Origin: Roseibium aquae
Lineage (GTDB): Bacteria > Pseudomonadota > Alphaproteobacteria > Rhizobiales > Stappiaceae
Assembly (NCBI RefSeq): GCF_008711285.1
Contig: NZ_VXDC01000003.1
Coordinates: forward strand, 186,001 to 250,000
DNA length: 64,000 bases
Direction of reading: 5' to 3'
This document shows, piece by piece, positions 27,497 to 47,175 of the stretch. Made by a program: the position numbers and the translations under genes. Under the pieces are notes generated by a model. That model saw only the letters and a program-made list of their open reading frames with translations. It searched no databases and was not told the origin of the DNA. The first letter of the stretch is position 1; every line of letters begins with the position of its first letter.

Positions 27497-27693
27497 CGGT
27501 CAGACCCTGATAGGAGGACGGAATGCGGCGACTGGACGGTGCCCGGGACCGCGAAAGGCCCGGCCCCCGTTAGATGGCAGCAGGCGGGCTCCGGTCAAGT
27601 GCGCGTCCCCCTCTTGCCTTCAGGTTCGATTTGATTACTCTCAGTTTTAAGAAACAAGATCCGATCCCGCATCGGAACCCGAGGGAGACTGAC

Positions 27694-28749
27694 ATGACAT
27701 CGAGCGCCAAATCCGGCAGCCCGCTGAGTGCACCCATGGCGTCCGCCACCCCACCCGCGATGATCGATCCGTTTGGCCGGGCAGTGACCTATCTGCGGGT
27801 CTCCGTCACCGACCGCTGCGACTTCCGCTGCGTCTATTGCATGGCGGAGGACATGACGTTCCTGCCCAAACGCGAGGTTCTTTCACTCGAAGAGCTCGAC
27901 CGGCTGTGTACCGCGTTCATTGAGAAGGGTGTCCGCAAGCTGAGATTGACGGGCGGCGAACCGCTGGTGCGCAAGAACATCATGTCGCTGATCCGCAGCC
28001 TCGGGCGCCATCTAGACAGCGGTCTGCTGCAAGAATTGACGCTCACGACCAACGGATCCCAGCTTGCCCGGTATGCGGAAGAGCTCTATGAGGCCGGCGT
28101 GCGGCGGATCAACGTGTCGATCGATACGCTCGACCCGCAGAAATTCAAGGCCGTTACCCGCTGGGGGGAACTTGGCAAGGTCATGGATGGCGTGCGGGCC
28201 GCAACGGAAGCGGGGTTGAAAATCAAGATCAACATGGTTGCGCTGAAGGGCGTCAACGAACATGAGATCGTGCCGATGATGGAGTGGGCCCATTCCCACG
28301 GACACGACCTGACCATCATTGAAACCATGCCCCTTGGAGAGATCAACGAGGACCGGACAGACCAGTACCTTCCGCTTTCCCTGGTCCGGGCGCGCCTCGC
28401 CGAGGCCTTCACCCTGGAAGACATTCCCTACAAGACCGGGGGTCCCGCCCGCTATGTCGAGGTGAGGGAGACCGGCGGACGCCTGGGCTTCATCACGCCG
28501 ATGACGCATAATTTCTGCGAAAGCTGCAACCGGGTCCGGGTGACCTGCACCGGGCAACTCTACATGTGCCTGGGTCAGGACGACATGGCCGATCTGAGGG
28601 CTCCCTTGCGCGCCTCGGAAGGAAACGAACTGTTGAACGAGGCCATCGACGAAGCCATTGGCCGCAAGCCGAAGGGCCATGACTTCGTGATTGACCGGCG
28701 GACGAAACAGCCGGCCGTATCGCGGCACATGAGCGTCACTGGCGGCTGA
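27694..28749 (+). CDS. moaA: GTP 3',8-cyclase MoaA
   Basis: A 351-residue radical-SAM enzyme, first step of molybdenum cofactor synthesis from GTP. The N-terminal cluster motif is C42-x3-C46-x2-C49 ([11 protein letters not shown]). The C-terminal substrate cluster motif begins [11 protein letters not shown] and includes the Cys of LYMCLGQDD. The protein ends in the conserved Gly-Gly (SVTGG) needed for catalysis. The ATG at 27694 has GAGGGAG 7 nt upstream. An extra N-terminal 25 residues precede the usual [14 protein letters not shown]. It feeds the formate dehydrogenase and mob/moe genes in this window. Gene and function are clear. Confidence 0.95.
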
Positions 28750-29126: not shown

Positions 29127-29834
29127 TCAGTCCTCGAACCGAACCGCCATCCGCCGCCGGATCGGGACTTTCGCCGGCGCAGCTTCCTCCTGCCATTCCG
29201 GCGCGGACCCAACCGCGGCCGCTGTTTCTTGCGGGGACTCGGCTTTGTCCTTGTCTTCCGCCGCCTTCATCGGGCCGGGAGTATCAACGCCACCGGGCTC
29301 GGACGGGGATGTCTCCAAGGCCGGGTTCGCCGCTTGACCGTCCTCAACCTGCCGCGCCCGGGCCTCGTCAGCAGCTTCCGCCGCCATTTCCTCGGCCTTT
29401 GCGGCATAGCCTTTGCCAACTTCCCAGGCTGAGCGATAGCTGGACACAAGATGGTCCGCCGTGCGGAAGTCGGTGTCGTAATCGTTCAATCCGTCCAGAA
29501 CCGCGAATACGGGATCACTGCGCCACAGCTTGCGCAAGGCACGGTTTTTCAGCGCTTCGGGTACGCCCTTCTTCATGAAGACTGTAAAATCGGATTCGGC
29601 GGTCAGGGTCTCCAGATCGATTGCTTCGGCAGCCGCGCGGTTGGCGGCCTGTTCCGGATCCTCGCCCGCCCTGTCCGAAGGGGGGCCGTCGCCGGGACTT
29701 TGCGTCAGGCCGGCACTGGCCTGATCCTCAAGGGGCGGCTCGCCTTCCAGCTTTTCCGGCGCCTGGCTTTCCCGCTTCCTGCGCGACCATCTGGCGAGAA
29801 ATCCCCCTTGCGCTGCGTCATCCACCCGGCTCAC
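29127..29834 (-). CDS. DUF3306 domain protein (formate dehydrogenase-associated)
   Basis: A 235-residue hydrophilic protein. The N-terminus FLARWSRRKRESQAPEK and central ESDFTVFMKKGVPEALKNRALRKLW region are the DUF3306 signature; the rest is an acidic, Ala/Glu/Pro-rich tail with no fold. DUF3306 and DUF3305 genes are usually found together near formate dehydrogenase clusters, and their role is not known. The start is GTG, overlapping the DUF3305 stop as GTGA, so the two are translationally coupled. Confidence 0.8.
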   Translation of the reverse strand: MSRVDDAAQGGFLARWSRRKRESQAPEKLEGEPPLEDQASAGLTQSPGDGPPSDRAGEDPEQAANRAAAEAIDLETLTAESDFTVFMKKGVPEALKNRALRKLWRSDPVFAVLDGLNDYDTDFRTADHLVSSYRSAWEVGKGYAAKAEEMAAEAADEARARQVEDGQAANPALETSPSEPGGVDTPGPMKAAEDKDKAESPQETAAAVGSAPEWQEEAAPAKVPIRRRMAVRFED

Positions 29835-30367
29835 GTGTCTTCTCCCTCAACGCGCCGGCCCTCTGGCGAGAAGATCGGCATCTTGCCGAATTTCTGCTCC
29901 TCCAGCTTTTCCGGCACACGCTTGCGTTTCAAGAAGGCCCCAGGGTCCGGCATTTGCTTGATATAGTCGACAGCCCAGGCCAGGATTTCAGGCGGCATGT
30001 CAACACGCTCCACAAGACCTTCGGCCGAATCAAGCCGGCCCTGCGCTTCATAGGGATCGGCGGTTACACCATGCACGCGATACGGCACCGGCTGTGTATC
30101 AGCGTCGTCCAGCATGATCCAGAGCGCCGGAGACCCGGTCTCCACATTGGCGTCATAGGCCTCCCCCATCCGCCGATGCAAGACCAGATTGACGGACGCA
30201 TAGAGGAACTGCGTGGCCATATCTCCTTGAACGGCGATCTGCCAGCCGCCCGTTGGGAGCGCATTTGGCACGACACCCAGCCCCTTCCATGTGTAGTCCG
30301 CCCAGGGGTGCGTGCTTTTCCGGCGTTCGATCAAGATCCCGACCGGCATGAGGATTTCCGATTTCAC
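29831..30367 (-). CDS. DUF3305 domain protein (formate dehydrogenase-associated)
   Basis: A protein of about 178 residues. MPVGILIERRKSTHPWADYTW... with LPTGGWQIAVQG and SPALWIMLDDAD matches DUF3305. It has no signal peptide or membrane segment. GTG at 30367 is favoured (GGAAG upstream); ATG at 30349 is an alternative, while the open frame beyond is not family-like. It is divergent from the multi-cluster ferredoxin gene across about 190 nt, which should carry both promoters. Families like this accompany FDH genes in proteobacteria; function unknown. Confidence 0.8.
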   Translation of the reverse strand: MKSEILMPVGILIERRKSTHPWADYTWKGLGVVPNALPTGGWQIAVQGDMATQFLYASVNLVLHRRMGEAYDANVETGSPALWIMLDDADTQPVPYRVHGVTADPYEAQGRLDSAEGLVERVDMPPEILAWAVDYIKQMPDPGAFLKRKRVPEKLEEQKFGKMPIFSPEGRRVEGEDT

Positions 30368-30557
30368 TGACGCTTCCACCCATGTTTGTTCGGTTTCGAG
30401 TTTATGGCGAAACGTCAGGTTGGAAAAGCGGCCACAGGATCCGAATGAAACAGCGCATTCCAGCTTGCGCCGCAGAAGCCTTTGCTTGCGCCGTGGCCGC
30501 GCTGCGCTAGAGTTAGAAAAATTCAAAACAAGACCTGCGATCGCCGGAGCCCGCTTC

Positions 30558-32606
30558 ATGTCCGCCAGCCAAGGCCGCGTCCTCATCTGCAATTGTTTTA
30601 AAACCATGGATCTGTCGGGGGTCGGCGACGCGCTTGGACCCGATCTTGCCGCCCCCGTGTGCACCGAATTATGCCGGGGTGAAATGGACCGCTATGAGGC
30701 CGCCGTGCGCGAGGGCGGGAGACTTCTGGTGGCCTGCACCCAGGAAGCGCCGCTGTTTACCGAAGTCGCCGACGACATGGACGCCCCGGCTGAACTTTCC
30801 TTCGTCAATATCCGCGAGACAGCCGGATGGGGCGCGGCCGGCGGCAGCGCGGGCGCCAAGATCCTTGCCCTGCTGGCCGATGCTCAGGCCAGGGCGGATC
30901 AAACGCCAACCCCTGTCAGGGAAGTTGAATCGGATGGCCTGTGCCTGGTGTACGGCAAAGGCCAGACCGCCCTCGACGCGGCCTTCTCTCTGGAAGACAC
31001 CCTTTCGGTAACGCTCGTCCTATGTGACTGGGAAGATGTCGTGCTCCCGGCCATTCTGCCGTTCCCGGTCTATTCGGGCCGGCTGAAACGTGTCGGGGGA
31101 TCGCTCGGCCGGTTTGACGTGACGCTAGACGGCTACGCGGAAATGCTTCCCTCATCCCGGCAAAGTCCCGAATTCCAGCTGCCGCGCGATGGCGCCAAGG
31201 CGAGTTGCAGCCTGGTGGTGGATCTCTCGGGCGGGGAGGCAGCGGTCACCGCGCCGCAAAAGCGCGACGGATACTTTCGGGCGGACCCGGCGGATCGCGC
31301 CGCGGTTGAAAGGCTCATGCGCGCCGCCTCGCAAATGGTCGGCACTTTCGAAAAGCCGATCTACGTCAACTACAACCCCGATATCTGCGCGCACACCCAT
31401 GCCGGAAAAACCGGCTGCTCGAAATGCCTGGATGCTTGCCCGGCCGGTGCCCTGACGTCGCTGGACGGCAAGATCGCCGTGGACACGGGGATCTGCGGCG
31501 GCTGCGGCAGTTGTTCCGCGACCTGCCCCACCGGGGCGATCACCTATCAGCATCCGGCGCGCAACGATCTTCTGGAGCGGATCCAGATCCTTCTGGGCGC
31601 CTATCGCGACGCGGGCGGGGCACAGCCCGTTCTGCTGCTCCACGAGGCCAACCATGGCTCCAATGTGATCAATGCGATGGCACGATTCGGCGACGGCTTG
31701 CCGGCCAATGTGCTTCCCCTGCCCGTGCATGCGGTCACGGCGATCGGGCATGATGGGCTCATGACAGCCTTCATGGCGGGCGCGGCGCGGATCGTCCTGC
31801 TGTCTCCGCCCGAAAAACGCCACGAACTGGTGCCCCTGGAAACGGAAATCGCGCTCACGGAAGCGCTCCTTTCCGGTATGGGTCATATGGGCAGCAACCG
31901 GATCACACTTCTGGCCGCGACCGACCCCGATGACCTGGCCGCCGTGTTCATGTCCCCGCTTTCGCCGCTCGGCCTGAGTGGCCCGGCAAGGATCCTGCCG
32001 GTGGGCGGCAAACGCGACGTGGCGCGCATGGTCATCGGCGCGGTCCACAAGGCAAGTCCGGCGGCGCCTGCGGTGGTGCCACTACCCGGCACGGCGCCCT
32101 ATGGCCGGATACATATCGACAGCGCGGGCTGCACCTTGTGCCTGTCCTGCGTGTCCGCCTGTCCCGCCGGCGCGCTTCTGGACAATCCGGACCGGCCGCA
32201 GGTCAGCTTCATCGAAAGCGCCTGTGTCCAATGCGGCCTGTGTCAGACCACCTGTCCGGAACGGGTGATCACTCTGGAACCGCGTTTCAACACCTTGCCC
32301 GATGCCATGCGCCCGTCCATCTTGAAGGAAGATGAACCAGCGGCCTGCATATCCTGCGGCAAGCCGTTCGGAACCAAGGCGACGGTTTCGCGGATCAAGG
32401 AAAAGCTGGCCGGCAAACATCACATGTTCCGATCCGATCTGCAGATCCAAATGATCGAGATGTGCGATGATTGCCGGATCCAGGCGCAATGGGATGCCAA
32501 TCCCGACCTTGGCAACGTTGGCGGACGCCCCAAACCCCGGACCACCGAGGACTATCTGGACGCCGAAAAGCGCGGGCTGAGCATGGACGACTTCTTGAAA
32601 AACTAA
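30558..32606 (+). CDS. Large multi-cluster ferredoxin-type protein of the formate dehydrogenase locus
   Basis: A 682-residue soluble iron-sulfur protein. The N-terminus has RVLICNCFKTMDLSG and CTELCRGEMDRYE. Four ferredoxin-type motifs follow: a first pair around TGCSKCLDACP and CGGCGSCSATCP (near 290-330), and a second pair around CTLCLSCVSACP and CVQCGLCQTTCP (near 525-575). Near the C-terminus CISCGKPFG and CDDCRIQ form extra Cys pairs. No flavin or molybdopterin domain is visible. The ATG at 30558 has GGAG 8 nt upstream. It probably carries electrons linked to formate oxidation or FDH cofactor assembly; similar genes lie near FDH in related bacteria. Exact partner unknown. Confidence 0.8.
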   Translation: MSASQGRVLICNCFKTMDLSGVGDALGPDLAAPVCTELCRGEMDRYEAAVREGGRLLVACTQEAPLFTEVADDMDAPAELSFVNIRETAGWGAAGGSAGAKILALLADAQARADQTPTPVREVESDGLCLVYGKGQTALDAAFSLEDTLSVTLVLCDWEDVVLPAILPFPVYSGRLKRVGGSLGRFDVTLDGYAEMLPSSRQSPEFQLPRDGAKASCSLVVDLSGGEAAVTAPQKRDGYFRADPADRAAVERLMRAASQMVGTFEKPIYVNYNPDICAHTHAGKTGCSKCLDACPAGALTSLDGKIAVDTGICGGCGSCSATCPTGAITYQHPARNDLLERIQILLGAYRDAGGAQPVLLLHEANHGSNVINAMARFGDGLPANVLPLPVHAVTAIGHDGLMTAFMAGAARIVLLSPPEKRHELVPLETEIALTEALLSGMGHMGSNRITLLAATDPDDLAAVFMSPLSPLGLSGPARILPVGGKRDVARMVIGAVHKASPAAPAVVPLPGTAPYGRIHIDSAGCTLCLSCVSACPAGALLDNPDRPQVSFIESACVQCGLCQTTCPERVITLEPRFNTLPDAMRPSILKEDEPAACISCGKPFGTKATVSRIKEKLAGKHHMFRSDLQIQMIEMCDDCRIQAQWDANPDLGNVGGRPKPRTTEDYLDAEKRGLSMDDFLKN

Positions 32607-33978: not shown

Positions 33979-34064
33979 ATATGCTTTGACTTTCGGGACC
34001 GAATACCCCGCCACAAGCCTTCGGCTGATCATGGCGCGAGATATTTCACGAAACCAATTTTAAT

Positions 34065-34952
34065 TCACGAATCTCGAACCGGCCCTGCATGACGCAAACG
34101 CCGTTCTCGAAAGAAGGTGTATATGCCCGTCAGGACCACGACAAGCGTTCCGGCAATTGTCATGGCGTCCGGAATATCCCCCCATACCAGGAAACCGAGG
34201 ACGATCGCCCAAAGCACGATCGAATAGCGGAACGGAGCGACGACCGAAATGTCCCCGGCGCGCATGGCCGCAATGATGAAGACGTATCCCACCATGATGA
34301 AGCCGGCTGCAACGGTAAGATACAGCCACGAGCCCGCGGTCATAGGGACCCAGCCCTTGACCAGGGTCATGGTGCCGCCCATGAGCGTGACGGCGGCCGT
34401 TGTCGCCAGTGCAACCGCGAGCGTGGGGATCGCCGTGGGGATCCGCCGGGTCGCCAGATCCCTCAGCGCCATGAACAAGACCCCGGCCAGCGCGAACAAG
34501 GAAAAACTGTTGAACCCGGCAAGCCCCGGCCGGACGATCAGAACAACACCGGCAAACCCGACGAGGATCGCCGTCCAGCGGCGCCAGCCGACCGCATCGC
34601 GGAAGAAAAGCGCGGCGCCTGCCGTCACGACCAGCGGCAGCGACTGCAGGATCGCGGTCGCATTGGCGAGCGGCAGCTGAAAGAGCGCCGTCAAATAGAG
34701 GAGCGTCGCGGTCACTTCGCCAATCGTGCGCAAGCAGACGGAGGGATGAATCACCCGCGGCACGGCGCGCAAGACCCCGGTCGCGGCACAAGCGATCGCC
34801 AGCAAGGCGCCGCTGATCAAACCACGCACGAAAATGATCTGTCCAAGAGGGAGACTGTCGGATGTCAGCTTCACCATCGTATCGTTGAGAATGAACCCGG
34901 CCATGGCGAGCATCATCGCGCCGATGGCCCGGCCATTTTCCCGAAAGTCCAT
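34065..34952 (-). CDS. EamA/DMT-family transporter
   Basis: A 295-residue integral membrane protein with ten segments and two EamA repeats. Cues: FILNDTMVKLTSDSLPLGQ in the first helix pair, ALFQLPLANATAILQSLPL in TM4, and the matching second-repeat stretch DISVVAPFRYSIVLWAIVLG. It ends in a basic tail (FRERRLRHAG). GGGAGAG lies about 4 nt before the ATG. Members move metabolites outward; the substrate is unknown. It is the middle of three minus-strand genes (MFS, EamA, DUF6352) but is spaced 60-90 nt from each. Confidence 0.83.
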   Translation of the reverse strand: MDFRENGRAIGAMMLAMAGFILNDTMVKLTSDSLPLGQIIFVRGLISGALLAIACAATGVLRAVPRVIHPSVCLRTIGEVTATLLYLTALFQLPLANATAILQSLPLVVTAGAALFFRDAVGWRRWTAILVGFAGVVLIVRPGLAGFNSFSLFALAGVLFMALRDLATRRIPTAIPTLAVALATTAAVTLMGGTMTLVKGWVPMTAGSWLYLTVAAGFIMVGYVFIIAAMRAGDISVVAPFRYSIVLWAIVLGFLVWGDIPDAMTIAGTLVVVLTGIYTFFRERRLRHAGPVRDS

Positions 34953-35012
34953 GACCTCTCCCGTCGTCGTTAAAACCGGCCTGCCCGAACGGGCGGCCTT
35001 GAAGCAAGGACA

Positions 35013-36026
35013 TCAGCTTCGGCTGGCAAGCGGCAGATTGACAAGCAGGTTCTGCGGCTTCATGCGGATCTTCCGGTCCTTTGTCATGGATAGGGCGAGC
35101 CAGACCGGTTTGCCGCGCTGGGCCGGCTGAACACTGGACCGGTTCTCGAAGTCGAGCCGGAAAAGCGAAATGATCTGCAAGTTCTCCGCCTCGGTCAACG
35201 CCTTGCCCTCATAGAGCGCATTCAAGATCACTGTCGAATCCGCATCCAGCCCCACATGCCACGACCACTGGTCGTCCCGGATCTTTTGAACCGGCTGGAC
35301 CCGGACATCGGTTTGAAAGAAATGCTGGATCCAGGCTTCCAGAACACGGGCGAAAGCGTCCGGCCCCGGTTGGGTGAAGCGGAAATCGAGGGCCGTGTCG
35401 AACCGGTCCGATCGCTCCCAATAAATGTCGGCGTTGTCTTCGCCCAGAACGTCCAGGGCGACTTCGCGCATTGGCGTTCCGGCTTCCATGAGCAACGCAC
35501 CCAGCCCGCCGAACCCGCCGGTTTCCGACATCATCGCGACGATTTCGGCATCGGCCACCATCACCGTACCATTCTCGAGCGTGACCACCTGCTCTCGGAA
35601 GAACAGTTCGGCCGCTTTCAACCGGACCGGATCCTGGGTCCTGCGGAGGATATTCCGCAAAATCAGATGAACAAGCTGATCGAGAAACACCGGCGGCACG
35701 AGAAGGCCGCTGTTCTGGAACAGCGCGGCATAGGCCGCCTCGATGGTTCCGTGCTTGACCAGATGGTCCCGGAAGGCGAGCACCACGTTGTAGTTGTCAA
35801 TCGTATCCTTGTCGGCAATCGCGCCGATCTCGGTCACGGCGACGCTGGCAAAGGGGTCAGCCATCAGCTTTTCGAACAAGGCGTGCTCGGCCGAGCAGGA
35901 TTCGTCCACCGGATGGATCTCCGGACGGGTGTAATAGGCGCGCAGAAGATCCGGCGTCACGGCCAGCCAGCCGGACTTTGTGCGGTCGACCAGATGATAA
36001 CCGGCCGACTTCCAAAACTCTCTCAT
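35013..36026 (-). CDS. DUF6352 family protein (formate dehydrogenase-associated)
   Basis: A 337-residue cytosolic protein, mostly helical with no signal peptide. Recognised segments include FWKSAGYHLVDR, WLAVTPDLLRAYYTRPE, VPPVFLDQLVHLILRNIL and DIYWERSDRFDTALDFRF, which match DUF6352. Its start overlaps the DUF6505 stop by ATGA, so the two are coupled. It is the last gene of the run DUF6494-DUF4444-DUF6505-DUF6352 that follows the formate dehydrogenase operon. No catalytic motif was seen. Function unknown; maturation or quality control of FDH is a guess from context. Confidence 0.75.
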   Translation of the reverse strand: MREFWKSAGYHLVDRTKSGWLAVTPDLLRAYYTRPEIHPVDESCSAEHALFEKLMADPFASVAVTEIGAIADKDTIDNYNVVLAFRDHLVKHGTIEAAYAALFQNSGLLVPPVFLDQLVHLILRNILRRTQDPVRLKAAELFFREQVVTLENGTVMVADAEIVAMMSETGGFGGLGALLMEAGTPMREVALDVLGEDNADIYWERSDRFDTALDFRFTQPGPDAFARVLEAWIQHFFQTDVRVQPVQKIRDDQWSWHVGLDADSTVILNALYEGKALTEAENLQIISLFRLDFENRSSVQPAQRGKPVWLALSMTKDRKIRMKPQNLLVNLPLASRS

Positions 36027-36520
36027 TCAGGGTCCTCCACCACATCCCAGACAAGGGCATGCGGTTTTTCCGCCGGCGGATTGACAATGTGAAACTGTTC
36101 GTTGACCTGCCCGTCCTCACCGATTTGCCGGCGGATGGCAAGCAGCATGTTCAAGGGCGCATCGCTGGCCAGGCCAGCGGCGAACGCGACCTCCTCCCGC
36201 GACAGCTGGTCGGCGGCCTCCTCACTTGGAGCACCGAAGTCCTCGATCAGGAACCGGGTCAACCCGGCGCGCGCAGCGTCGATCTCCTCAGGCCGGACCT
36301 CTCCGACACTGACCAGGGTTGAAAAGCCGAAATTCTCCAGACCGAGAAAACCACTGACAAAAGCCTGTCGGGCCTTCCCGCTCACTTGTGCCGGATCGAA
36401 CCCGGGCCGGGGCATGAACAGAAAACTGCCGGGAATAGCCAGCGAATCCGGCGAGGCTGCCCGCTCGAAGACATGCGTGTCGGACACATCGAACCGGATG
36501 GCTCTTAGGAAGCGCGCCAC
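36023..36520 (-). CDS. DUF6505 family protein (formate dehydrogenase-associated)
   Basis: A 165-residue soluble protein. The pattern RAIRFDVSDTHVFERAA, AIPGSFLF, VSGFLGLENFGFSTLV and LTRFLIEDFGAP resembles DUF6505. It begins at GTG one nucleotide after the DUF4444 stop and ends inside the DUF6352 start, so it is firmly within a four-gene operon. No cofactor motif and only hydrophilic sequence are seen. Function unknown. Confidence 0.75.
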   Translation of the reverse strand: MARFLRAIRFDVSDTHVFERAASPDSLAIPGSFLFMPRPGFDPAQVSGKARQAFVSGFLGLENFGFSTLVSVGEVRPEEIDAARAGLTRFLIEDFGAPSEEAADQLSREEVAFAAGLASDAPLNMLLAIRRQIGEDGQVNEQFHIVNPPAEKPHALVWDVVEDPE

Positions 36521-36521
36521 G

Positions 36522-37340
36522 TCAATCGCCCTTCACATCGTCAATGGGCACCACGTTCGCGCCACATGCGAGAGCATCCCTCACCAGCACAACGCGGGTT
36601 GCCGGAGCGCGCTGGGCCTGTGCCGGCGCAAGCAGACAGTTTCCGGTTTCATCCAGCCCGAGCATCCGGCCTTGCTCGCCGTCCTGATTGGGCATTCCGG
36701 CCAAGCGCACATCCTTTTGAAAGCCGTTACACCGGAACAACCAGGCATCGTGAACCGGCTTAAAGCCGTCCCCTTCCCAGCGATTGATCCAGCTCAACAT
36801 GTGGCGGGACCAGGCCTCGATCACCTGCGGCGCGCCGAGATCCGCGGCGCCCTCGTCCCACAAACTCGTCCGGTCTGGAAAATCGCCCGGATCGATCTCC
36901 GGATAGGGCCGCAAACGCAGATCAAGCCCGGCTATCAGCCACAGTGGCGCTCCGTCCCCGTCCAAGTCCGGGCTGATCTCCAAAAAAGCCCGGCCGACAG
37001 AAGCCCCGTTCGCACGGAACCTGTCCGGCCACGTCCACGTAAACGCCAGTTCGGGCGGGCCGACGGACCCGATGGCATCGCCGCAGGACACCATCAACGC
37101 AAAGAGCATTTCCTGTGCGCGGTCGGGGCCAACCTCAGGTTCCAGAACCAGCGCCAAGCCGACCTGGTCCGGATCGCAGGACCAGAACAGATGGCCGGCT
37201 TCCGCCCCGCCCCCGTCCAAGGCCCGGCGCGCAGCCGTTTGAACCGTATCGGGGGGAACTACGGGCCGCCCTGTCAGGAGCGGCGGCAAATCCAGTTTCA
37301 GATCCGGAAGCGGCTCGGTCATGCGCCCTTGGATTGTCAC
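36522..37340 (-). CDS. Biotin/lipoate protein ligase-like protein with DUF4444 domain
   Basis: A 272-residue protein. The N-terminal two thirds resemble the biotin/lipoate ligase fold (PDLKLDLPPLLTGRPV, ELAFTWTWPDRFRANGASVG, LWLIAGLDLRL), and the C-terminal third (RMLGLDETGNCLL) fits DUF4444. Known ligases need a catalytic Lys in a KWPN-like motif; no obvious equivalent is visible, so it may be a non-catalytic relative. The start may be GTG at 37340 (overlapping the DUF6494 stop as GTGA) or ATG at 37322. No lipoyl or biotinyl carrier gene is nearby. Role in the FDH locus unknown. Confidence 0.7.
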   Translation of the reverse strand: MTIQGRMTEPLPDLKLDLPPLLTGRPVVPPDTVQTAARRALDGGGAEAGHLFWSCDPDQVGLALVLEPEVGPDRAQEMLFALMVSCGDAIGSVGPPELAFTWTWPDRFRANGASVGRAFLEISPDLDGDGAPLWLIAGLDLRLRPYPEIDPGDFPDRTSLWDEGAADLGAPQVIEAWSRHMLSWINRWEGDGFKPVHDAWLFRCNGFQKDVRLAGMPNQDGEQGRMLGLDETGNCLLAPAQAQRAPATRVVLVRDALACGANVVPIDDVKGD

Positions 37341-37525
37341 AGTTCGATATCGCCCTTCACCTCATGAGTGAAGTCGGATCCCTCGATGGTCAGGGTTGCC
37401 TTTACTTTCAAGGTTCCGCCGCCAAGGCCTTCTTTCCGCACATGTTCTTCAAGTGCTTGTTGCGAGGTCACGCCAACCTGCTTCAAGAATTTGCGCATGG
37501 ACATGTTGAATGTGTCGTTGGTCAT
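37337..37525 (-). CDS. DUF6494 family small protein
   Basis: A 62-residue acidic-to-neutral protein, TFNMSMRKFLKQVGVTSQ at its start and a short beta-rich end (KVKATLTIEGSDFTHEVKGD). It matches DUF6494. It is the first gene of a four-gene run with an AGGAG box about 11 nt upstream, and it overlaps the ligase-like gene by 4 nt. The 115 nt upstream contain a pair of short palindromes that may be its promoter control. Function unknown. Confidence 0.75.
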   Translation of the reverse strand: MTNDTFNMSMRKFLKQVGVTSQQALEEHVRKEGLGGGTLKVKATLTIEGSDFTHEVKGDIEL

Positions 37526-37640: not shown

Positions 37641-37775
37641 TCAATCGAGACGTACGGTCCCGTTCGCGCTCGAATAGACCTGCGAAGCCGAATAATCGAG
37701 CTGGTGCGTCATCACATACCAGGCGCCGATCGTGATCGCGGCACACGCCACTATTCCCGCAAGAAATGCGTTCAT
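37641..37775 (-). CDS. 44-aa single-pass membrane microprotein in the formate dehydrogenase operon
   Basis: A 44-residue protein: one hydrophobic helix at about 3-21 (NAFLAGIVACAAITIGAW), then a short polar C-terminus (YSASQVYSSANGTVRLD) that probably faces the periplasm. It starts 5 nt after the stop of the WD40-cytochrome gene, with GGGAGAC inside that gene 8 nt upstream as ribosome site, so it is coupled to it. The final VRLD and clean codon use support coding. It is too short for routine gene callers. Possibly a small subunit or assembly factor of the membrane FDH complex; this is inference. Confidence 0.75.
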   Translation of the reverse strand: MNAFLAGIVACAAITIGAWYVMTHQLDYSASQVYSSANGTVRLD

Positions 37776-37780
37776 TGATA

Positions 37781-39199
37781 TCAGTCTCCCTTAGTGTTGT
37801 TCCGCGGTCCGCCATGAGCGTCCGGGTCGGTCGCCTTTTCAAGATAGGCGACCAGAGCGTCACGATCCTCGACCGATTTAAGCCGCTGGATGGGCATCTT
37901 GGAACCGGGCGTCACGACATCAGGACCCAGATCGAACAGATCGGATATGGTCTGCGCCGTCCACACCAGGTCCAGATCCTTCAGCGCATTGGAATACGGA
38001 TAGCCCGGCACGGTTCCCGCCTTGCGGCCAAAAACGCCATAAAGGGTCGGCCCGGCGCGGTTCGCGTCATCCGGCGTCAAAGTATGGCAGACCGAGCATT
38101 TGCGAGCAAATTGCAGCGCGCCCGGATCGTCCGTTTCGGCGACCTGAAAGCGCCGGGGAAACGTTCCCAAGACCGGTTCGAACGGCTTTCGCGGCGCCAC
38201 TTGCCAGACATGGACTTCGTCATCCAGGCCAACATAGAACAAGCTGTCCGCCTGCGCGGTGAAGGCCAGGCCCCAGACAGGGCCATATGGGTTCTCGAAC
38301 TCTTCCAGAAGTTCGAAACCATCCGTTGCAAAAACCCGGATCAGACCATCGCCACCGCCACTGGCCGCCCGTTGGCCGTCCGCCGACAAGGCAAGGGACA
38401 GGACGGGACGCGAATGCGGGGGCAGAATTTTCACCTCCTGGCCGCTTTCCGTGTCAAGAACCCCCAGCTTGCCATCGGTGACGCCAAACAGAAGCCGGCC
38501 GCCACCCGGCAAGACCTCGATCACGTTCACGCCCCAGCCGAGGTTGGCGATCTCACGAAGGAAGGAGCCGCTTTGCGTATCGAACGCGCGGATCCCGCCA
38601 TCATAGGATGCGGTGTAAAGGATCCCGCCGTCGGCCGAAAAGGCAACGGCATTCACATTGTTGCGGTGCTGGGTCAAACGATGACGAAGGATCAGGCGAT
38701 CCGGCTCGAGTTGGTAAAGCCGGGCTTCGTTCGCCCAGGATGCCACCGCCACGTAGCGCTCGTCCGCGGACACGGCAAGTCCGAGCACTTTCTCGCCCGC
38801 CCCGTCGGCGCGATGCAGGATCGTACCCGAGGTGAGGTCCCAGAGGATCAGCGCGCTGTCGTCGCCAACGGTGACGGCGCGGTTGCCGGACAGGAAGGCG
38901 CCGTGATTGACCGCCGCGTCATGGCCAACCAGCCGCAAGGGGTCGGCAAGCGCGCCCTCGCCGGCGGCCTTGTCCCAAACAAGGGCGGCGTAATCGAAGG
39001 ACGTCGATAAAAGGCGGTCGCCGGAAGCATCGACGGCCACCGACTTGACCGGACCGCCGTGGCCCTGAAGGGTTTCGGGCCATGCCTGTGCAGCCGCGAT
39101 CTGCGGCGGCAGCAGGATCGCCGCGGCCAACAGCAGCCGCCTTGCGCCAAACCCCAGACCGTCCCCGAGCCAGTCAAACAAGCGTGGCGTCAAAGCCAT
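37781..39199 (-). CDS. Exported WD40 beta-propeller fused to cytochrome c
   Basis: A 472-residue periplasmic protein. Signal peptide at about 1-38 (LLLAAAILLPPQIAAAQA). Seven WD40-type blades follow between about 45 and 345 (for example FDYAALVWD, DDSALILWD, YDGGIRAFD, GDGLIRVFA, DDEVHVWQ), enough for one complete propeller. The C-terminal class I cytochrome c domain has the heme motif CSVCH near 365, the region RAGPTLYGVFGRKAG and the distal Met in GSKMPIQRLKS near 435. It sits 6 nt after fdhC, inside the formate dehydrogenase operon. It may accept electrons from FdhC or dock a partner on the propeller. Domain calls are firm; the role is inferred. Confidence 0.85.
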   Translation of the reverse strand: MALTPRLFDWLGDGLGFGARRLLLAAAILLPPQIAAAQAWPETLQGHGGPVKSVAVDASGDRLLSTSFDYAALVWDKAAGEGALADPLRLVGHDAAVNHGAFLSGNRAVTVGDDSALILWDLTSGTILHRADGAGEKVLGLAVSADERYVAVASWANEARLYQLEPDRLILRHRLTQHRNNVNAVAFSADGGILYTASYDGGIRAFDTQSGSFLREIANLGWGVNVIEVLPGGGRLLFGVTDGKLGVLDTESGQEVKILPPHSRPVLSLALSADGQRAASGGGDGLIRVFATDGFELLEEFENPYGPVWGLAFTAQADSLFYVGLDDEVHVWQVAPRKPFEPVLGTFPRRFQVAETDDPGALQFARKCSVCHTLTPDDANRAGPTLYGVFGRKAGTVPGYPYSNALKDLDLVWTAQTISDLFDLGPDVVTPGSKMPIQRLKSVEDRDALVAYLEKATDPDAHGGPRNNTKGD

Positions 39200-39205
39200 G
39201 TCAGC

Positions 39206-40366
39206 CTATTCCGCCGGTTGTGCGGCAGGCTGCTGCCCGGTCTTCTTGTCGTGAATGTCGGCGACGTGCTCCTCGACCCAAAGCGAGTGGTGCTCCTTTG
39301 CCCAGTTCAGGTCAACCTCGCCTGATCCCATGGCATCGAACGCTCCCTCCATTCCGACGGACCCGATATAGATATGGGCAAGGATGACGCAAATCATGAA
39401 CACGGACATGATCGCGTGCCAGAGAGCCGCCAATTGCTGCTCCTGGATTGGCGCCAGAACCGTTGGAAAATCCGTTCCGAAGACCAGATTGATCTTGTCG
39501 AACGTGTCGGCGAAAAACGTGGTCGTGAAGGGAAAGAGAAGCTGCCAGCCCGACAGCGACAGGGACACGCCGCCAAGGATGGTCAGCCAAAAAATCACCT
39601 TCTGGCCCGCATTGAACTTCTTGGCCGGCGGGTGAAGTTTGTCGGAAAAGATGCCACCGCCCTGCATGGCCCATTTGATATCGGTCCGGTCGGGCAAGTT
39701 GTGCCGCACCCACATGACGAAAATCATCACCAGCCCCGCCATGAAGGCGAAGGCCAGATAATTGTGCAGATACTTGCCCATCTGGGTCACAAAGGCGAAG
39801 GCCTCGTTGCCGATGACATATTTCAGCGTATAGCGCCCATAAAGCAGATTGAGACCGGTCAACGCCAGAACGACGAACGAGGATGCGAGCATCCAGTGGC
39901 CGAACCGTTCAATAGCCTTGAAGCGGGTGATGGTCTGGCCGGAGCGGCCATGGGCGATCTTGATCCGCCCGCGAATGGCATAAAAAATACCCAGGAGAAC
40001 GATGGTGCCGAGCAAGGCCCAGCTGGCATAGAGCGACATCGGGCCGTTCCGGAACGACCGCCAGGCTTCGCCTTCGGACTGGACCAGAATCGCGGCGTTC
40101 TGATCAGGGATCGAAACATTGCCCTGCACCCCGCCGCGAACCGCGCGCCAGTAGTCGCTGTCCGAGGTGGTGCCCATGGATTGGCCAGGCACCGCACCGC
40201 CGGTTGGGGAATCGGCGCTCACGGCGGGAGCCGCCGTGCCCTCCTGGGCGGCCGCCTGCATCGGCATCGCCAAAACGATCCCCACGATGAAGGCCATGGC
40301 CAACACGCTCAAGCTGATGGCGCCGGCCCGTCCCGTGCGGCGGCTGTTGCTGTGTGTCAGACCCAT
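39206..40366 (-). CDS. fdhC: Formate dehydrogenase gamma subunit, cytochrome b556
   Basis: A protein of about 386 residues, membrane anchor and diheme cytochrome b that passes electrons from the FdhAB dimer to the quinone pool. A signal-like first helix (AISLSVLAMAFIVGIVLAMP) is followed by a periplasmic segment of about 90 residues (DYWRAVRGGVQGNVSIPDQN), then four or five helices with His ligands (RFGHWMLASSFVVL, LHNYLAFAFMAGLV, WHAIMSVFMICVILAH, IYIGSVGMEGAFDAMGSG). The N-terminal extension is absent from short E. coli FdnI but usual in alphaproteobacterial FDH3-type gamma subunits. GAGGAGGGG precedes two close start choices (GTG 40369, ATG 40366). Confidence 0.88.
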   Translation of the reverse strand: MGLTHSNSRRTGRAGAISLSVLAMAFIVGIVLAMPMQAAAQEGTAAPAVSADSPTGGAVPGQSMGTTSDSDYWRAVRGGVQGNVSIPDQNAAILVQSEGEAWRSFRNGPMSLYASWALLGTIVLLGIFYAIRGRIKIAHGRSGQTITRFKAIERFGHWMLASSFVVLALTGLNLLYGRYTLKYVIGNEAFAFVTQMGKYLHNYLAFAFMAGLVMIFVMWVRHNLPDRTDIKWAMQGGGIFSDKLHPPAKKFNAGQKVIFWLTILGGVSLSLSGWQLLFPFTTTFFADTFDKINLVFGTDFPTVLAPIQEQQLAALWHAIMSVFMICVILAHIYIGSVGMEGAFDAMGSGEVDLNWAKEHHSLWVEEHVADIHDKKTGQQPAAQPAE

Positions 40367-40431
40367 CACAATGGTCCCCTCCTCATCGTGTCCATTCAAT
40401 CGTGGTCCAGTCATTCAACGCGACCACGAGT

Positions 40432-40765: not shown

Positions 40766-41365
40766 TTAAAGCGAGCCGGCCTTTTGCTCATAGGCCGTGC
40801 CCCAGCCCCAAGCGCCCGAACCAAAGCCACGGGCCACCACGCGCTCCCGGTAGATGGAAGACACAACGTCCCCGTCCCCGGCGAGCAAGGCCTTGGTGGA
40901 ACACATTTCCGCGCAAAGCGGCAGTTTGCCCTCAGCAAGGCGGTTGCGGCCGTATTTCTGGTATTCGACCGAGCTGTTGTCCGCCTCCGGGCCGCCGGCG
41001 CAGAAGGTGCATTTGTCCATCTTGCCGCGGGATCCGAAATTGCCGACTTGCGGAAATTGCGGCGCGCCGAAGGGGCAAGCATAGAAGCAGTAGCCGCACC
41101 CGATGCACAGGTCCTTGGAATGGAGAATGACCCCGTCGTCGGTCTCATAGAAGCAGTCCACCGGGCAGACCGCCATGCATGGGGCATCCGAACAATGCAT
41201 GCAGGCCACAGAGATGGACCGCTCCCCGGGCTTGCCGTCATTGATGGTGACGACGCGCCGCCGGTTGATGCCCCACGGCACCTCATGCTCGTTTTTACAG
41301 GCGGTGACGCAGGCGTTGCACTCGATGCAGCGTTCGGCGTCGCAGAGGAATTTCATCCGTGCCAT
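40766..41365 (-). CDS. fdhB: Formate dehydrogenase beta subunit, four 4Fe-4S clusters
   Basis: A 199-residue electron-transfer subunit. Four ferredoxin-type Cys groups are present: CDAERCIECNACVTACKNEH near the start, CMHCSDAPCMAVCPVDCF, CIGCGYCFYACPFGAP and KCTFCAGG with CAEMC. These would hold a wire of four clusters from the alpha-subunit Mo centre to cytochrome b. There is no C-terminal membrane helix, unlike FdnH/FdoH, matching the FDH3 type. A GGGAGGGAA ribosome site lies upstream. It directly follows fdhA (16 nt). Confidence 0.93.
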   Translation of the reverse strand: MARMKFLCDAERCIECNACVTACKNEHEVPWGINRRRVVTINDGKPGERSISVACMHCSDAPCMAVCPVDCFYETDDGVILHSKDLCIGCGYCFYACPFGAPQFPQVGNFGSRGKMDKCTFCAGGPEADNSSVEYQKYGRNRLAEGKLPLCAEMCSTKALLAGDGDVVSSIYRERVVARGFGSGAWGWGTAYEQKAGSL

Positions 41366-41381: not shown

Positions 41382-44282
41382 TTACGCCGCACGCTCGATG
41401 CGGCAGAGCGTTGCTTTGGTTTCCTGCATCTGGGTCACACTGTCATACCCGTAGGTCTGGGCCGTGTTGCACGCTTCGCCCAGGACATAGGGGTCGGAAC
41501 CGGCCGGATACTTCGACCGCAGATCCTCACCCTGGTAGTGACCTCCGAAGTGGAACGGCATGAAGGCAACGCCGCGCCCGACGCGTTCGGTCACCATGGC
41601 CATGACCCTCACCTTTCCGCCTTCCGGACCGTGAACCCAGACCATCTCCCCGTCGCGGATCCCAAGATCGTTGGCATCGCCCGGGTTGATTTCCACGAAC
41701 ATGTCCTGCTGCAGCTCGGCAAGCCACGGATTGGACCGGGTTTCATCGCCGCCACCTTCGTATTCCACAAGACGCCCGGATGTCAGGATCATCGGGAAGT
41801 CCTTGGAGAAGTCGTTCTTCTGGATGGAGGCATAGGCGGTCGGGACGCGCCAGAAGGTCTTGTCTTCGTACGTGGCGTACTTGTCCAGAAGATCCCGGCG
41901 GTTGGTGTAGAGCGGTTCGCGGTGCACCGGAACCGGATCCGGGAAGGTCCAGACAACCGCGCGCGCCTTGGCGTTGCCGTAGGGGGCGCAACCGTGCTTG
42001 ATCGCCACCCGCTGGATCCCGCCGGACAGGTCGGTCTTCCAGTTGGTGTTGTCGCCGGCGACCGCCTCGATTGACGCCCGCTCCGCATCGGTCAGGTCCG
42101 AATCCCATCCCAGCGACTTGAGCATCGCCATGGTGAATTCGGGATAGCCGTCCTGGATTTCCGATCCGACCGGGTAAGACCCTTCGGCCAGAAGATTGTC
42201 GCCATCGCGCTCGACGCCGAACCGGGCGCGGAAACCCATGCCGCCTTCGGCGACCGGGATCGACGTATCATACAGATTGGCCGATCCGGGGTGTTTCATC
42301 TCCGCGGTGCCCCAGCACGGCCAGGGCATGCCGTAGAAATCGCCGTCGCACGGTCCGCCATTGGCCCGCAGCGTGGTGCGGTCGAATGTGTGCTGGTTGG
42401 CCATGTGAAGCTTCATCCGCTCCGGCGACTGGCCGGTATAGCCGATCGTCCACATGCCCTTGTTGAACTCGCGCGTGATGTCCTCGATCACCGGCTCGTT
42501 GCCATTGACCGCGATGTTCTTGAACATTTCATCCGCGAAGCCGAGCTTCTTGGCCAGGAGATACATGATCTCGTGGTCAGTCTTGCTCTCGAACAGCGGC
42601 TCGATGACCTTTTCGCGCCACTGAAGCGACCGGTTGGAGGCGGTGGCCGATCCATAAGTCTCGAACTGCGTGGTGGCCGGCAGGAGGTAAACCCCGTCTT
42701 TCCGGTCCGACAGGACGGCCGACATGGTCGGGAAAGGATCGATCACGACGAGCGTGTCGAGCTTTTCCATTGCCGTCTTCATGTCGGGAAGCCGGGTCTG
42801 CGAGTTCGGGGCGTGGCCCCAGAATACCATGACCTTGGTGTTCTTCGGCTGCTGCAGGTTCTCCTCGTCCTCCAGAACGCCATCGATCCAGCGGGAAACG
42901 GGAATGCCCTTCTCGTTGATCATCTTCACTTCCTGACCGTTCTTGGTCATGGTCGCGAAGCGGTCGCGCAGGTAATTGACGTCAACGTCCCAAACACGGG
43001 CCCAGTGCGCCCAGGAACCGTCGGCAAGACCATAGTACCCCGGCAGGGTGTCGGCCAAAACGCCAAGGTCGGTTGCGCCCTGCACATTGTCGTGGCCGCG
43101 GAAGATATTGGTTCCGCCGCCGGCCTTGCCCATGTTGCCGAGGGCAAGCTGAAGCACGCAATAGGCGCGGGTGTTGTTGTTGCCGTTCGTGTGCTGCGTT
43201 CCGCCCATGCACCAGATCACGGTGCCGGGCCGGTTGTTGGCCAGCGTGCGGGCAACGCGCTTGAGCTGGGAGCCGGGAACGCCGGTGACGTGCTCGACCT
43301 CATCCGGGGTCCAGCGCGCCACTTCTTCCTTGATCTGTTCCATTCCCCAAACGCGCTGACGGATGAACTCCTTGTCTTCCCAGCCGTTGTCGAAAATGTG
43401 CCAGAGAATGCCCCAAACCAGGGCAACGTCCGATCCCGGGCGGAACCGGACATACTCTGTGGCATGGGCGGCGGTCCGGGTGAACCGCGGATCGCAGACG
43501 ATCAGCGGGGCGTTGTTCTCTTCCTTGGCCTTCAGCACGTGGAGCAGCGACACCGGGTGCGCTTCGGCGGGATTGCCGCCGATGATGAAAATCGCCTTGG
43601 AGTTGTGAATGTCGTTGTAGGAGTTGGTCATCGCGCCATAGCCCCAGGTGTTGGCAACACCTGCGACAGTGGTCGAGTGACAAATACGGGCCTGGTGGTC
43701 GATGTTGTTCGTGCCGAAGAAGGCCGCGAATTTGCGCAAGAGATACGCCTGCTCGTTGTTGTGCTTGGCGGACCCGAGCCAATACACACTGTCCGGCCCT
43801 TCGTTTTGCTGGACCTGGAGCATCTTGTCGCCAAGCTCGTCGATCGCCTGCTCCCAGGAAATCCGCTCCCATTGGCCGTTGACCAGCTTCGTGGGATACT
43901 TCAACCGGCGCTCGCCATGGGCGTGCTCGCGCACAGCCGCGCCCTTGGCGCAGTGCGAACCAAGGTTGAACGGGCTGTCGAAACCCGGTTCCTGACCGGT
44001 CCACACACCGTCTTGCACCTCGGCCAGAACCGTGCAGCCGACGGAACAGTGCGTGCAAACCGTTTTCTTGATCTCAACCTTGGCACCGGCGATGGGGCCC
44101 GCGGCTTCCGCCTTGCGCACCATGCCAGCGGACCCGACCGCGGCCACGGCGGCAAATCCGCCGGCCGCAATCCCCGACCGGCGAAGGAACGTGCGCCTGT
44201 CCATCGTCGTGGCCGCCGCATCCGCAAGAGCGGCAGATATCCGCCCGCGCCGGGCGATACCGCTGGTCTTTTTCCTGAGCAT
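41382..44282 (-). CDS. fdhA: Formate dehydrogenase alpha (catalytic) subunit, cysteine type
   Basis: A 966-residue Mo-bisMGD enzyme that oxidises formate to CO2 in the periplasm. A twin-arginine signal is at 28-60 (DRRTFLRRSGIAAGG). The 4Fe-4S cluster uses C76-x2-C79-x3-C83 and C111. The catalytic selenocysteine of E. coli FDH-N/H is replaced by Cys, C201 in ARICHSTTVAG, with conserved His next to it. Molybdopterin contacts include CMGGTQHTNGNNN and QTRLPDM. The extra 27 residues before the TAT motif are unusual; GAGGGAG 8 nt before the ATG supports the start. The operon order is chaperone, TAT microprotein, fdhA, fdhB, lipoprotein, fdhC. Confidence 0.95.
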   Translation of the reverse strand: MLRKKTSGIARRGRISAALADAAATTMDRRTFLRRSGIAAGGFAAVAAVGSAGMVRKAEAAGPIAGAKVEIKKTVCTHCSVGCTVLAEVQDGVWTGQEPGFDSPFNLGSHCAKGAAVREHAHGERRLKYPTKLVNGQWERISWEQAIDELGDKMLQVQQNEGPDSVYWLGSAKHNNEQAYLLRKFAAFFGTNNIDHQARICHSTTVAGVANTWGYGAMTNSYNDIHNSKAIFIIGGNPAEAHPVSLLHVLKAKEENNAPLIVCDPRFTRTAAHATEYVRFRPGSDVALVWGILWHIFDNGWEDKEFIRQRVWGMEQIKEEVARWTPDEVEHVTGVPGSQLKRVARTLANNRPGTVIWCMGGTQHTNGNNNTRAYCVLQLALGNMGKAGGGTNIFRGHDNVQGATDLGVLADTLPGYYGLADGSWAHWARVWDVDVNYLRDRFATMTKNGQEVKMINEKGIPVSRWIDGVLEDEENLQQPKNTKVMVFWGHAPNSQTRLPDMKTAMEKLDTLVVIDPFPTMSAVLSDRKDGVYLLPATTQFETYGSATASNRSLQWREKVIEPLFESKTDHEIMYLLAKKLGFADEMFKNIAVNGNEPVIEDITREFNKGMWTIGYTGQSPERMKLHMANQHTFDRTTLRANGGPCDGDFYGMPWPCWGTAEMKHPGSANLYDTSIPVAEGGMGFRARFGVERDGDNLLAEGSYPVGSEIQDGYPEFTMAMLKSLGWDSDLTDAERASIEAVAGDNTNWKTDLSGGIQRVAIKHGCAPYGNAKARAVVWTFPDPVPVHREPLYTNRRDLLDKYATYEDKTFWRVPTAYASIQKNDFSKDFPMILTSGRLVEYEGGGDETRSNPWLAELQQDMFVEINPGDANDLGIRDGEMVWVHGPEGGKVRVMAMVTERVGRGVAFMPFHFGGHYQGEDLRSKYPAGSDPYVLGEACNTAQTYGYDSVTQMQETKATLCRIERAA

Positions 44283-44375: not shown

Positions 44376-44567
44376 CTAGAAGCGCGCGGTTTCGTAGGCG
44401 CGTTTCACATGGTCCGTTTCCTGATAGCCGGAAGCTCCAGCCGCCGGGGTCTCTGCGGCGGAGGCTTGACCTGTCATCAGTGTCGCGCCACTCGCCAGGG
44501 TCCCAAGGCTCGCCAGCTTGAGGAAATCGCGACGCCCTTTGACGTCCTTTTCCAACTTCTCACCCAT
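44376..44567 (-). CDS. Small TAT-signal protein of the formate dehydrogenase operon
   Basis: A 63-residue protein with a twin-arginine motif (GRRDFLKLASLG), hydrophobic core and cleavage near ASAAE. The remaining part is about 25 residues (ASGYQETDHVKRAYETARF). It resembles the formate dehydrogenase region TAT protein family found upstream of FDH alpha genes. It is 94 nt before fdhA and 106 nt after the chaperone gene, with GAGGAG upstream. Its role is not established. Confidence 0.85.
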   Translation of the reverse strand: MGEKLEKDVKGRRDFLKLASLGTLASGATLMTGQASAAETPAAGASGYQETDHVKRAYETARF

Positions 44568-44672: not shown

Positions 44673-45296
44673 TTAAGCAGCCATCGAGAAGGCGTCCGCC
44701 TCCACAGCCATCAAAACCCGGCCCAGACCGCCGGCCGCCGCGTAGAAGGGGCTGGTGGTTTGAGCTTCGAGATCCTTGAAAAAATGCGGGGCCCACTTGC
44801 CAATGTGCCCGCTGAAGAATGCCTGCTGCGCCGCCAGCGGCAACGGACCCTCGTGCCAGAGGTCTCCCCGGATCAATCCGCCCATCATCTGCATCAGCGA
44901 TGCGATATGGTCCTCCGGCTCGCACACGCCCTCGTTGCGGGCTATGCCCAGCTGCGCCATCGAGGCCCGCAAATCCGCGAGCGGCTTTTCGTTCAGGAAA
45001 CCGGTCAGGTAATAGGACCCGTAGGGCACCAGTTCGCCGCGGCCAATGCCGATGAAGAGGTCGTGATAGGCGCGCTTGAGTGTCGCTTCGTCCGTTTTCC
45101 GAGCCTCACCGATCACGCGCTCAAGTGCCTTGCCGACGTCGGTACTGGAAAGCGCGGGCTCAATCTCCATAGCGGCGACCGCGCGCAAAAGATCTGAGTT
45201 TGGCGCGGCTTGAAGAAGCGCCCCAATAAAATCGTACAGATCAGCGCGATCGGCGTCCTCGGGCGCCACCGCGCCGCGAGATACTCCTTGAGTCAT
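44673..45296 (-). CDS. TorD/DmsD-family chaperone of formate dehydrogenase
   Basis: A 207-residue all-helical cytosolic protein, a redox-enzyme maturation factor that binds TAT signals of molybdoenzymes. Typical features are the early DLYDFIGALLQAAPNSDLL, the central YHDLFIGIGRGELVPYGSYY (family core Y-x-x-L-F-x-G) and EPEDHIASLMQMMGGLI. The ATG at 45296 is supported by GAGGGAG 6-8 nt upstream; the open frame extends 25 codons without similarity. It is the first gene of the FDH operon. Client: most likely FdhA. Confidence 0.88.
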   Translation of the reverse strand: MTQGVSRGAVAPEDADRADLYDFIGALLQAAPNSDLLRAVAAMEIEPALSSTDVGKALERVIGEARKTDEATLKRAYHDLFIGIGRGELVPYGSYYLTGFLNEKPLADLRASMAQLGIARNEGVCEPEDHIASLMQMMGGLIRGDLWHEGPLPLAAQQAFFSGHIGKWAPHFFKDLEAQTTSPFYAAAGGLGRVLMAVEADAFSMAA

Positions 45297-45318
45297 GTTT
45301 TTCTCCCTCGGCGTAAAG

Positions 45319-45336
45319 AATTGCGCGTGCGCAATT
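45319..45336 (-). promoter_or_regulatory. Perfect palindrome before the formate dehydrogenase operon
   Basis: AATTGCGC-GT-GCGCAATT is an exact 8+2+8 palindrome, 23 nt before the chaperone ATG. A second GCAATTG element lies a few bases upstream. Its place suggests a repressor site overlapping the leader of the FDH operon. Confidence 0.5.
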
Positions 45337-45857
45337 TCGCCGCAATTGAAATCCATGCCGCCCTGCAACATAAGGTGTCTCTATATACCCTAAATTTGCT
45401 CTTTGAATCTAATCTGTAAAAAATTACATTATTTCACATAAAAACACATAATACGTGTTCATACGTAAAGTTACACAAGAAACCGTCAACCTGCCGCAAA
45501 ACCCGACGACAAACCGCCAAATCAAACCTCTTGACGGACCGATTCCGGTACCCGCGATGACGGCGTTTTCAGCCAATAGCCTCCCAACTCAGGCTCCAAG
45601 CATCATAATGGCTGTGAAAACATGGACTTAGGTGAATAGGAATGCAAACGGCATCGGGGTCGCCGGATCGATTTGGCGCGCTCCGGAAAAACCCGCTTGT
45701 GCAGGGGCCGACGCGATCTTGCGGCATCGCAGCAAGCACATATGGCAAAACATATGTTCCGGAAGACAAAAGCTCACCCGGAAAGTCCGGTTAAAAAGTG
45801 GGCCGGATCCCTCCGGATTCCGGCAGCAGCCGTCCCGAGCCGCCGACCGACGGCGTC
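45337..45857. promoter_or_regulatory. AT-rich regulatory region between the FDH operon and mrp
   Basis: About 520 nt without a convincing gene. The stretch 45,371-45,490 is much more AT-rich than the surroundings and should hold the FDH promoter. It includes TACGT-N6-ACGTA near 45,458-45,473. A further perfect repeat, ACATATG-N6-CATATGT, is at 45738-45757. Short open frames here lack ribosome sites. Confidence 0.45.
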
Positions 45858-47042: not shown

Positions 47043-47175
47043 GATGTGCGCCTTGTTTTCGCGTCCTGTCCGGCACGGCACCGGAATCACCGCCCTAACC
47101 TAACTACGTAAAAACCCGCGTCAATCGCAACACGCAGGGCCGGGCTTCATCGGCATCGCGGGGCCGTGCGCAGCG

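Follow-up and report, generated by a model that had tools for sequence, protein, structure and literature searches.

What do four adjoining genes behind a formate dehydrogenase (FDH) operon do in Roseibium aquae, and do they serve that enzyme? The window, a stretch of 64,000 nucleotides of contig NZ_VXDC01000003.1, carries the following four genes.

37337-37525, minus strand: DUF6494 protein, 62 aa (PF20104 match, 1e-27, Pfam)
36522-37340, minus strand: BirA-like protein without active site, 272 aa, here called the ligase-like protein (PF16917, BPL_LplA_LipB_2, 6e-59; PDB 3bfm relative, 4.5e-36)
36023-36520, minus strand: DUF6505 protein, 165 aa (PF20115, 7e-43; AlphaFold2 pLDDT 88.8)
35013-36026, minus strand: DUF6352 protein, 337 aa (PF19879, 3e-90; AlphaFold2 pLDDT 91.4)

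The coordinates and Pfam matches (1e-27 to 3e-90) show a common strand and bear out the order and the tight junctions given in a preliminary description of this DNA: a 4-nt GTGA overlap between the DUF6494 and ligase-like genes, a 1-nt gap between the ligase-like and DUF6505 genes, and a 4-nt ATGA overlap between the DUF6505 and DUF6352 genes. This tight spacing is kept in relatives, where the ligase-like/DUF6505 junction measures -4 to +30 nt in 29/32 cases and the DUF6505 and DUF6352 genes overlap at 24/33 junctions. The label DUF4444 (PF14563) that had been given to the ligase-like protein does not hold, as the window protein has no match at E<=0.1; the family matches 12/46 of its relatives. 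The closest relatives of the window DUF6352 are those of Roseibium and Stappia. A DUF6352 protein 49% identical to it is also present in a MAG labelled Bordetella parapertussis (L110), a label that is likely wrong. One contig-limited MAG (L123) seems to join DUF6505 and DUF6352 in a single reading frame, but this could be a fault of the assembly and was given no weight. Downstream of the four genes, ORF 34060-35013 is spurious; the genuine gene there encodes an EamA transporter (34065-34952).

The first eight features below lie upstream of the four genes on the same strand, in the order of transcription.

45858-47090, minus strand: Mrp/ApbC iron-sulfur carrier ATPase (PF10609, 8e-105)
44673-45371, minus strand: TorD/NarJ-type chaperone (PF02613, 4.6e-30)
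44376-44567, minus strand: small Tat-signal protein of the FDH region (found in 40/80 neighbourhoods)
41382-44282, minus strand: FDH alpha subunit (FdhA), bis-MGD enzyme with a Tat-type signal (PF00384/PF01568/PF04879)
40766-41365, minus strand: FDH beta subunit (FdhB), ferredoxin type, fdh3B-like (Fe-S cysteine motifs in the translation; plasmid relatives named fdh3B)
39206-40414, minus strand: FDH gamma subunit (FdhC), cytochrome b (TIGR01583 above cut-off)
37781-39199, minus strand: WD40 repeat-cytochrome c fusion protein (Pfam WD40 and Cytochrom_C)
37641-37775, minus strand: conserved ORF for a 44-aa single-helix membrane protein, between the cytochrome c and DUF6494 genes (tblastn, 27 loci, mostly FDH-linked)
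30312-32606, plus strand: large cytoplasmic 4Fe-4S protein, conserved neighbour, true start probably downstream (Fer4 repeats; cluster in 39/80 neighbourhoods)
29831-30664, minus strand: DUF3305 protein, true start probably downstream (PF11749, 4.4e-28)
29127-29834, minus strand: DUF3306 protein (PF11748, 1.4e-25)
50106-50801, plus strand: FdhD sulfurtransferase, matched region (PF02634, 2.5e-75, at G000:C31:236106-236801)
27574-28749, plus strand: moaA

FdhA matches the Fdh-alpha family at 2.5e-143, yet falls below the equivalog cut-off. Both moaA and fdhD lie in the window, so that cofactor synthesis and FDH genes are clustered there. The four genes had been described as directly following the FDH operon; their same-strand position behind an fdh3-type operon stands, while the word "directly" does not, because the WD40-cytochrome c gene, the 44-aa ORF and then 115 nt intervene. 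No terminator-like or sigma-70-like site was found between the 44-aa ORF and DUF6494, and their co-transcription is therefore plausible. The 44-aa ORF, too short to appear in the 60-aa ORF list, lies 5 nt past the end of the WD40-cytochrome c gene; its product, MNAFLAGIVACAAITIGAWYVMTHQLDYSASQVYSSANGTVRLD, has one membrane helix. It is a probable small FDH-linked gene, possibly encoding a small subunit of the FDH complex. In relatives, a 24-locus cluster represented by L062:7313-8419 (+) places a DegP-like trypsin/PDZ protease gene, which is not in the window, near the cytochrome c and DUF6494 genes.

The operon structure of the four genes is ordinary, and their link to FDH is good. The same 240 alphaproteobacterial genomes (203 genera) were used for all families, together with a wider sample of 200 genomes across the phylum. 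Among the alphaproteobacteria, this FdhA is present in 30/31 genomes that bear DUF6352 (Fisher p=4e-31, a value that, like the one below, ignores phylogeny and shared ancestry), the lone exception being a contaminated draft of 810 contigs (G007). The corresponding counts are 22/24 for DUF6505 and 24/25 for the ligase-like protein, whose set was delimited by hand as full-length PF16917 matches with E of about 1e-31 or better, excluding coaX-linked BirA copies. Of the two DUF6505 exceptions, one is a genome that is 80% complete. The other is G119, where this FdhA is likewise missing and the DUF6505 homologue (G119:C3:5362-5742, minus strand) is interrupted by a single in-frame TAA stop, so that it has the look of a remnant in decay. 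Across the phylum sample, all bearers of DUF6352 (9/9) and DUF6505 (15/15) are FdhA-positive. The preliminary description would have counted its proposal as refuted if the families occurred mostly without FDH genes, a test that three of the four withstand. For DUF6352, DUF6505 and the ligase-like protein the association with FDH is strongly supported, by co-occurrence as well as by neighbourhood, and these three families are nearly confined to FdhA genomes, adjacent or not; for DUF6494 the tie is looser. Restriction to hosts of the client enzyme, which marks a dedicated molybdoenzyme maturation module, is thus found in three of the four families and partly in DUF6494.

DUF6494 accompanies this FdhA in 25/39 of the genomes that bear it and occurs without it in 14/39. 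In genomes without this FDH it sits beside sdhB in two and beside mdh or succinyl-CoA synthetase genes in others (L156:7187-7552, L165:1318-1521 and L155:7813-8166), so that DUF6494 may play a part in respiratory enzymes more widely. There is a real chance, if somewhat short of even, that it is a passenger with such a broader role, standing outside the FDH module, which would be compatible with an assembly role for the other three proteins. Against this count its presence in 25/36 FdhA-positive genomes (p=8e-16) and its occurrence inside FDH islands even when apart from the other three.

Linkage without adjacency is the strongest point for the FDH link. On the single contig of G028 the positions are 1.27 Mb for FdhA, 1.55 Mb for DUF6352, 1.65 Mb for DUF6505 and 0.71 Mb for DUF6494; the distance between FdhA and DUF6352 is about 280 kb there and 580 kb in G233. 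An FDH gene falls within the fetched stretch at 46/80 named DUF6352 loci, or 32/43 of those with full flanks. When 30 genomes without an FDH gene in the DUF6352 stretch were searched in full (two of them apparently also in the 240 set, given identical coordinates), FdhA was found at no less than 64% identity in 26/30, as a near-complete protein in 24 (64-80% identity) and as a contig-end fragment in two; the remaining four are MAGs of 1.6-3.2 Mb with no FdhA at that identity level. In the genomes looked at, DUF6352 stands in unrelated contexts, and simple hitch-hiking is therefore no explanation.

Where the genes do meet FDH, they form islands of variable make-up. On plasmids of Bradyrhizobium, Sinorhizobium and Microvirga the genes run ligase-like, DUF6505, DUF6352, DUF3305, DUF3306, TorD, Tat protein, FdhA, fdh3B and gamma subunit, except that DUF3305 is not listed in the Microvirga island; the Sinorhizobium and Microvirga islands also carry FdhD, MobA, molybdopterin genes and DUF6494. 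Beside many FDH islands lies a tungstate-type ABC transporter (PBP_like_2 binding protein, ATPase and permease; L067:15074-17333 and L198:3622-5891, both minus strand), whose presumed tungstate specificity hints at a tungsten enzyme. The ligase-like/DUF6505 pair occurs with FDH and without DUF6352 in non-alphaproteobacteria, and it follows Mrp and the large 4Fe-4S gene in one alphaproteobacterial family (f24, no DUF6352) and one non-alphaproteobacterial genus. Given this pair and the loose attachment of DUF6494, the picture of one uniform four-protein unit has to be given up: the unit is modular, built on the ligase-like/DUF6505 pair as its core, to which many alphaproteobacteria add DUF6352, and with DUF6494 as its loosest member. 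Some alphaproteobacteria (G194, G229 and G075) have FdhA but none of the three core members, DUF6352 and DUF6505 are missing from FdhA-bearing non-alphaproteobacteria G281, G296, G313, G324 and G405, and the module is wholly or partly missing from some genomes whose FdhA is closely similar. The module is therefore not universally essential, and in some FdhA genomes it may be conditional, redundant or replaced.

The proteins themselves offer few known relatives. The single-chain AlphaFold2 models of DUF6352 and DUF6505 are confident, but Foldseek searches of both against the PDB gave no match at E below 0.1, no convincing sequence relative of either is present in the PDB, and the DUF6352 model has no fold relative in a viral structure library. 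Both folds would be new in this sense only, measured against the PDB and within what Foldseek can detect. Many charged or aromatic residues are invariant in DUF6352 (W254, W256, H257, D261, K323 and others), and its tail, KPQNLLxNLPL, is conserved, a pattern as would be expected for a binding surface or pocket. None of the three alignments has an invariant Cys column (best 86%, 63% and 69%), and an iron-sulfur or sulfurtransferase role via Cys ligands was rejected on this ground. No signal peptide or membrane helix is found in any of the four proteins (maximum 19-residue hydropathy 0.28-1.56), and all four are expected to be cytoplasmic. In the literature searched, no mention of DUF6494, DUF6505 or DUF6352 was found and no function is reported for them.

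An FDH of this type has to acquire bis-MGD and several Fe-S clusters, its subunits must pair, and it must be exported by Tat. Some of these needs are covered by TorD, FdhD and Mrp, and the same islands carry TorD, FdhD, MobA/MobB or Mrp. An assembly or proofreading role best fits a cytoplasmic set that tracks FDH at any genomic position and includes a ligase fold without catalysis. Judging from sequence and gene context, the ligase-like protein, DUF6505 and DUF6352, and more loosely DUF6494, probably act in the cytoplasm as dedicated accessory factors for the production of the fdh3-type, Tat-exported, membrane-bound FDH. What counts against an assembly role is that the module does not accompany every such FDH and that FdhD and TorD are already present.

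Genomic association by itself does not tell maturation from regulation or complex membership. The proteins would co-occur as strictly with FdhA, and be linked to it in operons just as they are, if they were not assembly factors but stayed in the FDH complex as cytoplasmic subunits or regulated it, controlling, for example, formate oxidation or transcription. This we hold to be unlikely. The four proteins have no membrane helix or signal, whereas the FDH catalytic subunit, with its Tat-type signal, is expected to be periplasmic; FDHs up to 79% identical occur without DUF6352, which would be odd for a subunit; and Pfam finds no DNA-binding or sensor domain. We are about as doubtful that the genes supply molybdenum or tungsten cofactor in general, serving several bis-MGD enzymes and merely co-located in the FDH island. 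Islands with MobA, MobB, moeA-like genes, FdhD and the tungstate-type transporter, and moaA in the window, are in keeping with such a supply role, but a general factor would be expected with other bis-MGD enzymes too, and the three families almost never occur without this FDH; nor do they have a conserved Cys for sulfur or metal transfer.

The preliminary description had allowed for protein modification as well as maturation or quality control, and the ligase-like protein is where these part. Its homology to the catalytic domain of biotin protein ligases is clear in the PF16917 match, and its profile finds PDB 3bfm at 1e-65 and BirA chains at 3e-11. The closest structure is 3bfm, a "biotin protein ligase-like protein of unknown function", which thus offers a structure and no assigned function. 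With BirA and 3bfm the ligase-like protein shares the profile family, a conserved WP motif and the C-terminal region. Unlike BirA, it is linked to FDH and lacks the GRGRRGR loop and the catalytic Lys. In an alignment of 50 FDH-linked members with six ordinary BirA proteins from alphaproteobacteria, all columns of this ligand/adenylate loop were gaps in 50/50, and a Lys stood at or beside the catalytic column (KxxGIL region) in only 2/50, the window protein having Ser/Ala. The earlier remark that no catalytic Lys is evident is thus confirmed in 48/50 members and extended to the whole active-site loop. A BirA-type protein without the GRGRRGR loop and catalytic Lys should not form biotinyl- or lipoyl-adenylate. 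Attachment of biotin or lipoate by the ligase-like protein is therefore very unlikely, and it is likely a non-catalytic BirA relative. That it is an active lipoate or biotin ligase modifying FDH or its cytochrome, as its BirA homology and database naming might suggest, is barely credible and was rejected on the loss of loop and Lys, several of the same genomes also having separate, normal BirA genes elsewhere; no report of FDH together with a biotin or lipoate ligase was found in the literature searched. Of the earlier proposal, then, the FDH link stands for three of the four families, the modification version is disfavoured, and assembly or quality control is the better inference.

In an assembly role, the BirA-fold protein would hold apo-FdhA or FdhB, serving as a binding scaffold and not as a catalyst. 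DUF6505 and DUF6352 would bind this scaffold or the folding enzyme and, ahead of export by Tat, help to insert cofactors or to proofread. The proposed role resembles that of the TorD/NarJ/DmsD chaperones, which are cytoplasmic, enzyme-specific and encoded beside molybdoenzyme operons. In contrast to these, the module proteins show no relation in sequence or fold (no PF02613 match or NarJ-like fold by Pfam and Foldseek), and the module is additional to a real TorD in the same operon, the separate gene at 44673-45371 that does match PF02613. E. coli FdhD and FdhE are likewise dedicated to FDH biogenesis, but the module proteins have no Pfam match to PF02634 (FdhD) or PF04216 (FdhE). Replacement of FdhD was ruled out, as FdhD differs from a replaced factor in being present alongside FdhA in 34/36 genomes; replacement of FdhE was ruled out because FdhE is missing from 53/53 FdhA-positive genomes tested, DUF6352 present or not, so that the module is no simple FdhE substitute. 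Uncharacterised DUF3305/DUF3306 and 4Fe-4S genes recur beside dmsD/torD-fdhGHI operons (Bay et al. 2015, PMC4464133) and are, like the module, recurrent near FDH; the text of that study differs in making no mention of lipoate.

What is new here is that a single molybdoenzyme would be served by two fold-orphans and by a BirA relative that is likely non-catalytic. We tentatively suggest, as something that may well prove otherwise, that the stripped biotin-ligase fold and the two proteins of unseen fold, DUF6505 and DUF6352, make up a new kind of assembly complex for bis-MGD FDH, additional to TorD and FdhD. If so, three widespread families of "unknown function" would gain a role, the unassigned structure 3bfm would gain a candidate function, and a ligase fold would have been reused as a scaffold. 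There is demand for metal-dependent FDHs, both to reduce CO2 and to support growth on formate, and foreign hosts produce them with difficulty; if these genes are the missing assembly factors, adding them could enable production of the fdh3-type enzyme elsewhere.
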